A DNA stretch of 35,250 nt from Ignavibacteriales bacterium (GCA_026390585.1 JAPLFP010000222.1:1-35250); one strand, 5' to 3'; shown: positions 31,119-35,250, numbered from the stretch's first letter. Numbers and translations are program-made. The notes: generated by a model from the letters alone, not told the origin.

Positions 31119-31172
31119 CTAAATCATGCCAACCAGAGCCCGCGAGCAGCCGTGGTTTGCTGTTCGTTAAGT
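31119..31172 (-). other. short degenerate attC-like site
   Basis: Minus strand ACTTAAC-gaaca-GCAAACCA-cggctgctcgcgggctc-TGGTTGGC-atg-ATTTAGA, 12 nt after the stop of the 31185 ORF. L boxes pair 7/8; the R' box is degenerate. Confidence 0.5.
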
Positions 31173-31184
31173 GCCGTGCAGCCC

Positions 31185-31991
31185 TTATGCGCGATGTAAA
31201 TCCAGCTCATCTTCGATTCGCTTCTTTTTCTGAGCAATCATTTTAACAATGAAGGACTCAAAGTCTTCCTTCGGGTACGCCGGATTCGCTACGCGCTTGC
31301 CAAAAACAGCGCTTGTGAGAGCTTCGCCCAAATTGAAGAAACCAAGTGCAGTCGAGTAGCGATCGATCTGGTTGTACAGGATTTTCAGTTGTTCTATGTG
31401 CGTCTGAAGGTTAAGTTCGCGGGAAGAGGAGTACCGAGTTTCTAGCCGGCGATTCAGCATTGCCTGAAGTTCTTCATACGCGCTCTCCTCTGTGGAGGTG
31501 CCTCTTCGGACATAGATCGCTTGAGCTCGAACGCCATCACCATCCGATTTCGACACAAACGGGATGTGTTTTGGGTCATCCGGGATCATCACGACCTGGA
31601 ATTTCTTGCCCTTAATTGCATTGTACTCGGTTGCATCATATGAGAAATCGAGAATGTGAATCTGGGGAAGGAGTATATCCGGGATGAACTTGCGAACATT
31701 CCCGGTAATTTCAGCCTTGTCCACGAGCTTCTCAAGCCCCGTTGGCTCCAGCGAGTTGTCTTCGTTTTGAGAAACCCCGAGAATGATGACTCCACCCCCT
31801 GAATTGGCAAAACCCAAGAGGTGTTTCGAAAACTTGGGATAGGGAGGTAGCTCTCTCTTAAAATCGCACCCCGGCAGTTCGCCGATATTGTTCTTGAGCA
31901 AATCTCTGAGGCGATCTCGAGATGGGCGTTCGAAGAATCTAGCAAACTCCTCGTACAGGTGCTTGTCTTGTTCGGTAGACTTCTGAGTCAT
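31185..31991 (-). CDS. AlbA_2/Schlafen-like putative DNA-binding (ATP-binding) protein, cassette 1
   Basis: LLKNNIGELPGCDFKRELPPYPKFSKHLLGFANSGGGVIILGVSQ. Confidence 0.75.
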   Translation of the reverse strand: MTQKSTEQDKHLYEEFARFFERPSRDRLRDLLKNNIGELPGCDFKRELPPYPKFSKHLLGFANSGGGVIILGVSQNEDNSLEPTGLEKLVDKAEITGNVRKFIPDILLPQIHILDFSYDATEYNAIKGKKFQVVMIPDDPKHIPFVSKSDGDGVRAQAIYVRRGTSTEESAYEELQAMLNRRLETRYSSSRELNLQTHIEQLKILYNQIDRYSTALGFFNLGEALTSAVFGKRVANPAYPKEDFESFIVKMIAQKKKRIEDELDLHRA

Positions 31992-32022
31992 GGGACGATC
32001 CCTCCATGTGGGTTGCGCTGGC

Positions 32023-32178
32023 GCCTAACGTTTAGGCAAACCGCCGTTGCGAGCCGCCACTATCGAACTGACTCATTGCTGTGGCAGCGAGCAATGGAGC
32101 GAGCACTTTACATTTAGCCAACGCTTGTTTCAACATCGCCTATTCAGTGTGCGAGCGCCGGTTTGCCGTTTGTTAGGC
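32023..32178 (-). other. attC site A (integron recombination site)
   Basis: R boxes GCCTAAC/GTTAGGC, L boxes GGCAAACCG/CGGTTTGCC, 4-5 nt spacers, 156 bp. Confidence 0.82.
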
Positions 32179-32331
32179 GCAGGCAAAGTTCTTTGTGAAA
32201 AGCGTTTTGCGGCACAAGAAGAACCCGCACCGTGGTCCATGGTTCTTTGATGTTGTTTGCTTAACGAATGGACACTAACGTAGTTGCGTTTGCTGGCACC
32301 GACTGGTAATGATCACTATTTTTGCTATGCG

Positions 32332-33444
32332 TTATTGATCTCGAAGCGTGTATCTAGTATCAAGCACGTGAAGGCCAATGTCGATGACAGCATCTGTGCT
32401 ATTGGACAGTACAACGACCCCTATTCTCTTTTCTTTGTTGAATCCAACGAATGACTTGTAACCGATGGTGCTTCCACTGTGTCCGAGATTTGTTGTTCCA
32501 TATTCGTTCCATATGTGCCAGCCAAGTGCGATATTGTTCCTGGCATGCTTGAGATGCGTCAATTCAAATGTCGATGATAACTTTGAATGAATAAATCCGA
32601 TGTTTGCTGCGAGAAACACAAGCTGGTCGTGTACCGTGGATTTCAGAGCACCGGCTGCGCTAAAGACCGGACTGAATGTCCAATCAACGACGGGATGGCC
32701 TTCCTTGGTATAGGGAGCTGCGATGTTTGATTGGAACCCCGCAGGTATTGTTATGAAGGTATTTCGCAAACCAAGCGGTTCACAGATACGCTTTCGCACA
32801 AGGGTTTCATAATCCACGCCGGCTTCTCGCGCGAGGATGTATCCTAAGAGCCCAACGCCGATGTTTGAATACTCATATCGAGTGCCAATTTCTCGAGACA
32901 GTTCAAAGTGTGATAGGTAGGCATGCAACTGTTCTGTAGAATAATTTGCATATGGCTGATCGACATTTGGAGGAACCAGATTGTCTGGTCGGGCCGGGAG
33001 TCCTGACGTATGAGTGGCTAAGTCATAGAGAGTTATTTCCCTACCGTTGAATGTGGGAGTCCTGACTGAATCGGGCAAGAACTTCGAGATTGGATCACTC
33101 AGGCTCAGTTTTCCCGATTCTGCCATCTCCGCCAACAAAGAGCAAGTGAATAGCTTGGTTATTGAACCAATTCCGTACAACGTGTTCGCATCAGGTCTTT
33201 TGCCACTTCCCTTTTCTATTTCACCGTACGAGAATACACGCTCACCTTTTTCGCTGATGATGCCGACAACGATGCTCGCGCACCTGCCACTGTTGACCTC
33301 ATGTTCAATGTAGTTTCGAACATGATTGAATGATGTGTCTTCTTGAGCGATACATGTACTTGAGAGGAACTCTGTTCCCACTGTGAGCATGACAAGTATC
33401 CAATGCACGCTAACTATTTCAAAAGACAACCAGCGAATGTTCAT
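32332..33444 (-). CDS. serine hydrolase of the class C beta-lactamase/penicillin-binding-like family, cassette 2
   Basis: Signal peptide; GIGSITKLFT (SxxK), YEYSNIGVGLLGYI (YxN), LGHSGSTIGYKS (HSG in place of KTG). Confidence 0.88.
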   Translation of the reverse strand: MNIRWLSFEIVSVHWILVMLTVGTEFLSSTCIAQEDTSFNHVRNYIEHEVNSGRCASIVVGIISEKGERVFSYGEIEKGSGKRPDANTLYGIGSITKLFTCSLLAEMAESGKLSLSDPISKFLPDSVRTPTFNGREITLYDLATHTSGLPARPDNLVPPNVDQPYANYSTEQLHAYLSHFELSREIGTRYEYSNIGVGLLGYILAREAGVDYETLVRKRICEPLGLRNTFITIPAGFQSNIAAPYTKEGHPVVDWTFSPVFSAAGALKSTVHDQLVFLAANIGFIHSKLSSTFELTHLKHARNNIALGWHIWNEYGTTNLGHSGSTIGYKSFVGFNKEKRIGVVVLSNSTDAVIDIGLHVLDTRYTLRDQ

Positions 33445-33527
33445 TTAACCTCGAGATAATGTCGCTAAGCGGTGTTGTCTCATTAGTGGTGCCGCAAAAC
33501 GCCTCTAGCAAATGAATCTTTGCTTGC

Positions 33528-33683
33528 GCCTAACGTTTAGGCAAACCGCCGTTGCGAGCCGCCACTATCGAACTGACTCATTGCTGTGGCGGCGAGCAAT
33601 GGAGCGAGCACTTTACATCTAGCCAAGCCTTGTTTCAACTTCGCCTATCCAGTGTGCGAGCGCCGGTTTGCCGTTTGTTATGC
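33528..33683 (-). other. attC site B
   Basis: R boxes GCCTAAC/GTTATGC, L boxes GGCAAACCG/CGGTTTGCC; 156 bp and nearly identical to site A. Confidence 0.82.
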
Positions 33684-33744
33684 GCAGGCAAAGTTCTATG
33701 TCAATGGCGTTTTGCGGCATATAATGAAGAACCTGCGACGTGCT

Positions 33745-34146: not shown

Positions 34147-34212
34147 GATAAGCGCAGGAATGAGGTGCCTAGGTTCAACAATTCGCTTCGCATTGACCGT
34201 TGACTGGTACTT

Positions 34213-34374
34213 TTAATTCCCCTCGATTGTGTTAACCGGATAGCTCTGGTAATGATCGGCGTAATGGAGCTGGCGCTCCCGTTCTTGCAGGATGGTGAGC
34301 AGCCAATCGACCCACGCCAAAAGGAAAGTGACAACACCAGCTATCAAAGGGTGAGATGAGAGCCAGTCAATCAT
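34213..34374 (-). CDS. small membrane protein (53 aa), cassette 3
   Basis: Hand translation: MIDWLSSHPLIAGVVTFLLAWVDWLLTILQERERQLHYADHYQSYPVNTIEGN. First ATG after the cassette 5' end; below the ORF-track cutoff. Confidence 0.55.
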   Translation of the reverse strand: MIDWLSSHPLIAGVVTFLLAWVDWLLTILQERERQLHYADHYQSYPVNTIEGN

Positions 34375-34450
34375 GTCAAACCTCGTCACAAGGTGAAACG
34401 GTTGTTATCTAGTGCCGCAAAACGCCTTATCAAAATGTATCTTTGCTTGC

Positions 34451-34637
34451 GCATAACGTCAAGGCAAAACGCAGTGGTTTTTGGTGACCAAGATTTGACT
34501 TCGTTTCGACTGAGCCTATTAAAGACACCAAAAACCATTGAGCGAGTAGACGAGCTCAACTTCGCATTATGACAACCTTGAATTGCGTCTGGCCTGCAGA
34601 CGCTGGCCCGCGAGCGTCGTTTTGCCGTTTGTTATGC
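34451..34637 (-). other. attC site C
   Basis: R boxes GCATAAC/GTTATGC, L boxes GGCAAAACG/CGTTTTGCC, 187 bp. Confidence 0.8.
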
Positions 34638-34725
34638 GCAGCCGCCACTGTAGATGACTTTCGGTTTGTATTGATCTCATGTCAGGTCTCGGTGGTGCAC
34701 GCTTTAGAAGTCAGCCTGAGTTAAG

Positions 34726-34872
34726 TTAGCACCGATCTTTGCCTAGCTGTAACATTTTGGGCACGTCGCCCAGTCGGAATAGGAAACTACCGTTGTCGGT
34801 TGCGCTGTCTTTTTCAAAACTAGCCCTACGAATACCCTCTTTCATTTCTTGAAAAGATAAGCACAAAAACAT
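34726..34872 (-). CDS. possible small protein, cassette 4
   Basis: MFLCLSFQEMKEGIRRASFEKDSATDNGSFLFRLGDVPKMLQLGKDRC; the longer track start at 34947 would fall inside attC site D. Confidence 0.3.
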   Translation of the reverse strand: MFLCLSFQEMKEGIRRASFEKDSATDNGSFLFRLGDVPKMLQLGKDRC

Positions 34873-34930
34873 GGTTAAGTTGCGCCACCGAGTATGAGCA
34901 GAAGACTCTACTACTGATGGTGGCGGTTGC

Positions 34931-35082
34931 GTATAACGTCTAGGCAAAACGCCGTTGCGTTTGCCTCTATTGACTTATTGATTGCGGCAAACGCAATGGA
35001 GCGAACTCATTTCAGTTCGCCAATCTTAGCTTTAACTCTTGCCTATACAGATGAGTGAGCGTCGTTTTGCCGGTTGTTAGCC
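34931..35082 (-). other. attC site D
   Basis: R boxes GTATAAC/GTTAGCC, L boxes GGCAAAACG/CGTTTTGCC, 152 bp. Confidence 0.8.
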
Positions 35083-35250
35083 GCTGCCGCCCCCATACCG
35101 CACTTTCGGTTTGCGGTCTACGACGTCGGTTTCGGCGGCACACGCTTTAAGTCTTCGCATTACAAATCTGAGCTTTACCCATTTCTAAAATCCAGTGTGC
35201 CGCCGATGTTAGATGACTTACGTACCACCGCTCGTGGGGCGGTTGCGGCT

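Follow-up and report, generated by a model that had tools for sequence, protein, structure and literature searches.

Does the assembly of gene cassettes into integron-like arrays depend on the I2 helix of the integron integrase IntI? Integron surveys define integrons by I2 (PMC9668308, PMC9024848), a helix described as necessary for cassette capture, as docking the extrahelical bases of attC sites and as being found in no other protein (PMC7790495). The question is raised by the right edge of a 35,250-base stretch of Ignavibacteriales DNA (the window), which is the entire contig C20 of a 4.7-Mb metagenome genome in 379 contigs. This edge is an array of exchangeable gene cassettes, read on the minus strand. 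We consider it very probable that it is the part nearest attI of a gene-capture platform that resembles an integron but whose tyrosine recombinase has no I2. The array and its context come from single, fragmented metagenome assemblies, and joins between contigs were inferred from overlaps.

The cassette array and the adjoining recombinase

An independent scan for strict palindromes of the form RYYYAAC..L..L'..GTTRRRY returned exactly four in the 35,250 bases, against an average of 0.17 in Markov-shuffled copies of the window. All four show the attC layout R''-L''-L'-R' with RYYYAAC and GTTRRRY boxes. The L boxes, GGCAAACCG or GGCAAAACG, are 9 nt long and perfectly complementary, and the spacers measure 5 and 4 nt. 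The four sites, and the overlap through which the contig continues, are:

32023..32178, minus strand: attC-like site A, 156 bp (R'' 32172-32178, R' 32023-32029; L boxes GGCAAACCG; spacers 4/5 nt)
33528..33683, minus strand: attC-like site B, 156 bp (R'' 33677-33683, R' 33528-33534)
34451..34637, minus strand: attC-like site C, 187 bp (R'' 34631-34637, R' 34451-34457)
34931..35082, minus strand: attC-like site D, 152 bp (R'' GGCTAAC at 35076-35082)
35126..35250, no strand: exact 125-bp overlap with the right end of contig C256 (reverse complement), 0 mismatches

A covariance model of 34 sites gave the four minus-strand scores of 106-178 bits, all four being in its training set, and nothing in the rest of the window rose above chance. 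These results bear out the initial annotation, which had placed a minus-strand cassette array at the right edge, with four sites of 152-187 bp, perfect 9-nt L boxes and 4-5 nt spacers. The array extent given there, 31119-35250, is less secure on its left: the four sites span 32023-35082, and 31117-31173 is a possible decayed half-site. A full attC at that position was rejected; its covariance score is at chance level and it folds no better than shuffled sequences.

The R' box of one site and the R'' box of the next are the two ends of the same cassette, and they are matched cassette by cassette. In the window, inner-facing R boxes of neighbouring sites agree at 7/7, 7/7 and 6/7 positions, as initially noted, and the boxes within each site at 7, 6, 7 and 5 of 7. 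Extended to nine arrays of the genus, perfect matches between R' and the next site's R'' were found for 20/28 neighbouring pairs, compared with 8/37 within sites (Fisher p = 7e-5), and shuffling site order within arrays equalled the observed matching in 0 of 20,000 trials. The pattern is clearest in array G027:C193, with 5/5 between neighbours versus 1/6 within sites. Complementarity continues past the R boxes, at 8.4 of the next 12 nt versus 4.1 in controls (p = 7e-15), and IntI arrays show the same feature in weaker form. The matching of R boxes within cassettes, and the shared cassettes that end at them, are consistent with putative cassette movement by recombination within the R box.

The 125-base overlap sequence occurs nowhere else in the genome. 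Beyond it, oriented towards the array, lies the gene of a tyrosine recombinase of 387 aa (C256:10517-11680). Its stop codon is 69 bp from an attI-like box, CTA|GTTAGCC, in which GTTAGCC pairs at 7/7 positions with the R'' box GGCTAAC of site D, the array's first site; like an attI beside its integrase, this box ends in the GTTRRRY form. In G029, a further species of the genus, a single contig, C32, shows the same order as C20-C256: recombinase at 2840-4006 (minus strand), attI-like site, and sites at 130-2645. In G028, the recombinase and one such site stand together at one contig end. At 11/26 loci (one seemingly spurious), versus 35/650 swapped controls, the GTT box after the recombinase pairs perfectly with an R'' further downstream that is accompanied by an L-box partner. 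The same two genes adjoin the platform in G000 and G025 (L057 9300-11680, L155) at ~90% protein identity; the recombinases share 61%, so the recombinase evolves faster than the flanking genes or was replaced.

The C256 recombinase is not an IntI integrase, because the IntI-specific additional domain is absent: about 40 residues containing the I2 helix are missing. The integron integrase model TIGR02249 matches it in two pieces totalling 223.9 bits (cut-off 265) and skips model positions 178-232. Its segment from GxRxxE to HxLRH measures 92 aa, within the 88-97 aa of array recombinases, compared with 133 aa in IntI (20/20). When the G029 homolog is aligned to VchIntIA (2a3v), VchIntIA residues 174-247 are skipped, with a much shorter stretch in their place. 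Relative to IntI, the recombinase has an extra N-terminal domain of ~100 residues. The catalytic residues are all conserved (R239, K267, H329, R332, H355, Y364) and the frame is intact. An AlphaFold model (mean predicted local distance difference test score 79.7, predicted template modelling score 0.56) has VchIntIA as its best PDB match, followed by XerA.

The final tree comprised 67 rows and replaced a 25-row tree that held a single IntI. In it, array recombinases fall together with IntI at 92/90 support and are separate from the Xer paralogs of the window's genome; IntI forms a clade at 100/100, and the tree does not fix the order of IntI and the I2-less branches. The XerA model NF040815 (cut-off 220) gave 218.8 bits for the C256 protein, just below the cut-off, and 229 bits for the G029 homolog, above it; NCBI names this group 'site-specific tyrosine recombinase/integron integrase'. 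A cassette platform without I2, integron-like and related to IntI integrons, is the best explanation of the array. No IntI was found in the window's own genome, where the best TIGR02249 matches are Xer-like or lack the insert. Further Xer-type recombinases on C55 and C239 could serve chromosome dimer resolution at dif.

The initial annotation had expected attI and intI beyond 35250 if the minus-strand reading was right, to be reached by extending rightwards to an IntI with its additional domain. An attI-like site and a tyrosine recombinase do lie there, but the enzyme is not IntI, has no additional domain and points towards the array. The alternative offered was a cluster of attC sites lacking an integron integrase (CALIN). 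No IntI is nearby, but a non-IntI recombinase is adjacent through the C256 overlap, and the array is probably not a plain CALIN.

Site type and recombinase type

The sites, too, lack a feature of IntI systems, the bulged L-box base that is read by I2. Among 34 aligned sites, the L boxes fall into seven variants, perfectly complementary or nearly so, and an L-box bulge was present in 0/34; the extrahelical base in the L'' arm that characterises integrons is absent from them. The asymmetric spacers (4/5, 3/6 nt) could contain unpaired bases. In the L helix 98.4% of cells are paired and 4/9 pairs have changes on both sides, a co-variation that supports a putative folded site. IntI-adjacent sites in the same family, by contrast, were bulged in 19/19 cases by scan, with one extra C in L'' (GCTCAAGCTG vs GCTAAGCTG), as against 47/49 unbulged in arrays of the I2-less recombinase (Fisher p = 6e-15). 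A covariance model of unbulged sites had zero matches on IntI-bearing contigs. In two genomes, G012 and G015, both recombinases occur, each on a contig of its own. Bulged sites lie near IntI and unbulged sites near the I2-less recombinase in G012; unbulged palindromes lie beside the I2-less recombinase in G015, where no site was found near IntI. In distant Bacteroidota (L213, L229), a recurrent single L-box mismatch is a T.G wobble on the top strand, by which top-strand folding might be favoured.

Within the genus, the recombinase is present in 6/6 genomes, each time beside such sites or at a contig end, and IntI in one only. The covariance model detects 17 sites in this genome and 3-33 in five relatives, 92 in total over the six genus genomes.

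Several points weigh against a platform run by the I2-less recombinase. The G029 array (G029:C32) includes one bulged, IntI-type site (L099:745-900), and G028 has a true IntI as well. Folding confers no bottom-strand advantage: the bottom strand is lower in 9/34 sites, and strand choice by folding energy was accordingly rejected. The genome is a fragmented metagenome assembly, in which the link to C256 consists of the contig overlap and the attI/R'' pairing. Some recombinase loci in distant Bacteroidota have no clear array by these scans. Cassette recombination by this enzyme is predicted from sequence.

The first two of these points also favour the alternative that survives best, although we regard it as unlikely: an ordinary integron or CALIN would be mobilised in trans by a true IntI missing from the assembly, with the Xer-like recombinase a bystander. 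A true IntI scores above the cut-off in 11/32 family genomes, the one in the genus being that of G028, and the R and L boxes follow the attC layout. However, 5/6 genus genomes (84-96% completeness) carry many sites and no IntI, whereas the other recombinase is found in all six; the attI-like box beside the I2-less recombinase pairs with the first cassette; the model of unbulged sites detects none of the IntI-linked ones; and in G012, which like G015 holds both recombinases, each adjoins its own site type. The bulged site inside the unbulged G029 array may reflect cassette exchange between the two systems.

Less probable still is that the locus is a degraded, inactive relic, its recombinase and cassettes having lost the capacity to recombine. 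The window's own genome has many half-sites and decayed sites scattered over its contigs, and the R box has been lost at some sites (C34). Such decay is set against an intact recombinase frame with every catalytic residue in place, R boxes that still match perfectly within cassettes, ~90% identical cassettes common to different species, and copies of the beta-lactamase cassette on several contigs. That the palindromes are repetitive extragenic palindromes, miniature inverted-repeat transposable element-like repeats or terminators without a role in cassette exchange is scarcely credible: long imperfect palindromes between genes are frequent in bacterial genomes, and no Rfam family matches the array (the sole match in the window is a tRNA), but site order matters, with R' matching the next site's R'', which already contradicts this reading, and the recombinase is always at the same end, the intervening reading frames are unrelated and oriented as the array, and the L boxes co-vary.

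Cassette contents, neighbouring genes and distribution

The cassettes of the window, and the gene at its left limit, are:

31185..31991, minus strand: Schlafen AlbA_2-domain protein (PF04326), 268 aa, 32 bp downstream of site A
32332..33444, minus strand: serine beta-lactamase-family protein (PF00144), 370 aa, in the cassette with site A
33745..34146, minus strand: hydrophobic open reading frame (ORF), 133 aa, in the cassette carried by site B
34638..34930, minus strand: short cassette body between sites D and C, with no convincing ORF
35083..35250, minus strand: most of the first cassette, ORF-less, between the attI-like site and site D, with an inverted repeat (35132-35143 / 35195-35206)

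The inter-site ORFs (Schlafen AlbA_2, serine beta-lactamase-family and small hydrophobic proteins) are mutually unrelated and all on the minus strand. The Schlafen AlbA_2 gene is either the last cassette gene or the array edge, no recognisable intact attC lying beyond it. Contigs C120 and C34 carry related copies of the beta-lactamase cassette at their ends. A counterpart of the cassette body 33678-34472, 90% identical in DNA, lies among different neighbours on G029:C36, from another species; the similarity stops at the R boxes. From the G029:C36 copy (L098 near 5,451), the entire R''-R' hairpin is gone (GCATAAACGTTAGGC), a clean deletion. A site on G000:C34 (L041:7250-7405) lacks its R'' box, and its identity to site B ends at the base equivalent to the G of G^TT, with unrelated sequence beyond. 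Its reading as a scar of recombination at R'' was dropped; similar-looking cases on C31 and C120 are point changes or unclear.

The cassettes nearest attI (35083-35250 and 34638-34930) are short, lack ORFs and contain an inverted repeat, CGGCGGCRCAC..GTGYGCCGCCG. This seems true of several species, at the attI-like site on G026:C89, G027:C231 and G028:C304, and such cassettes might have a promoter or other leader function. Cassettes on G027:C284 (L102 8842-10580) carry toxin-antitoxin-like pairs, RelE/HigB-like with a helix-turn-helix partner as judged by sequence only, as in sedentary integrons. Directly to the left of the array, a DUF5131 protein (PF07505) and its upstream partner (29362-31011, minus strand) match the PADLOC candidate anti-phage pair PDC-M41B/PDC-M41A and are possibly a former cassette. 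About 3.5 kb left of the array lies a tRNA gene (27566-27639, minus strand), which could mark the boundary of an island.

The recombinase or a relative was found in 20/32 family genomes (E <= 1e-30) and in 82/399 evenly drawn Bacteroidota genomes (E <= 1e-60). In the fragmented family assemblies its 3' end lay 0-1,329 bp from a contig end in 12/12 measured cases, as expected if a repeat-rich array follows it. Arrays with unbulged or symmetrically mismatched sites after the recombinase also occur in other orders and classes (G202, G367, G288, G302, G373, G345). The soil bacterium Rufibacter tibetensis, which is in culture, carries a related recombinase of 484 aa on a mobilizable plasmid (NZ_CP012644.1); about six cassettes come after it, and their R boxes obey the same logic.

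Other plasmids bear related or comparable enzymes. XerA-type relatives on Clostridium plasmids were rejected as array platforms: the one region examined adjoins an IS91 transposase and has no array. An XerA-type relative on a plasmid of Clostridium estertheticum (L231) stands beside an IS91-family transposase, and on a Chryseobacterium oryzae plasmid (L227) another tyrosine recombinase has an IS91 transposase as its neighbour.

Proposed mechanism and relation to known systems

We propose that the recombinase, encoded just upstream of the array in the same orientation, would bind the attI-like core ..CTA^GTTAGCC and the R and L boxes of the cassettes, with strand exchange inside the R box, probably at G^TT. 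Cassettes would leave as circles, in which the R' and R'' of one cassette, together with their complementary flanks, are brought together; insertion of such circles at attI would place the newest cassette next to the recombinase. The cassette site probably acts as a folded hairpin or cruciform, because the L boxes are always complementary despite their changing sequence. Its perfectly paired arm would resemble double-stranded core DNA, and because the arm is perfectly paired, neither an extrahelical base nor an I2 pocket would be required, much as with the hairpin that CTX phage presents to XerC. We call this an I2-less integron-like system, not a strict integron, since I2 is missing from the recombinase and the base read by I2 is missing from the sites.

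If this reading is true, neither the I2 helix nor the bulge is needed to build cassette arrays, the system offers a natural comparison for the evolution of IntI from a Xer-like ancestor, and integron-like platforms may escape current tools in one of the largest phyla of bacteria, among them one on a mobilizable plasmid. A broader proposal has, in our judgement, about even chances: that this is a second, Bacteroidota-wide kind of integron, in which the recombinase moves hairpin cassettes with no I2 and no extrahelical bases, and from which IntI may derive by gaining I2, the arrays being older than the helix. A literature search found no I2-less integron and no such arrays; preprints and most subscription journals lay outside this search, and novelty is provisional. 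The closest remark found calls the insertion 'not fully conserved' in a subgroup of integron-like recombinases (PMC8138268).

IntI integrons (VchIntIA, IntI1, class 1 and sedentary chromosomal) are alike in having same-orientation ORFs between R''-L''-L'-R' palindromes, an attI-like site beside a tyrosine recombinase, cassette-wise R boxes and cassette genes that are mostly of unknown function, and no PDB structure matches the recombinase model better than VchIntIA. In contrast, the present system is without I2 (a segment of 88-97 vs 133 aa) and without the extra L-box base, and its recombinase gene points towards the array, has the ~100-aa N-terminal extension and occupies its own tree branch. 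A CALIN, as defined by IntegronFinder (PMC9024848), is likewise an attC-like cluster without intI on its contig, but this cluster adjoins its own, different recombinase and its sites have no classical bulge. XerA and Xer enzymes (NF040815; archaeal XerA 5hxy, 4a8e) share the simple architecture without I2, and the present proteins score around the NF040815 cut-off; they differ in grouping with IntI and in being tied to cassette arrays rather than to chromosome dimer resolution. In the pdif modules of Acinetobacter plasmids, too, genes flanked by Xer-type sites move as modules without IntI, but their sites are short and dif-type, with no L-box stem and no attI platform with its own recombinase. 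Closest in the proposed use of a hairpin that mimics double-stranded core DNA, with an I2-less recombinase, are CTX phage and other integrative mobile elements exploiting Xer, which use XerCD on folded single strands (PMC7790495); these have a single phage attP, no cassettes or arrays, and depend on the host's XerC/XerD.

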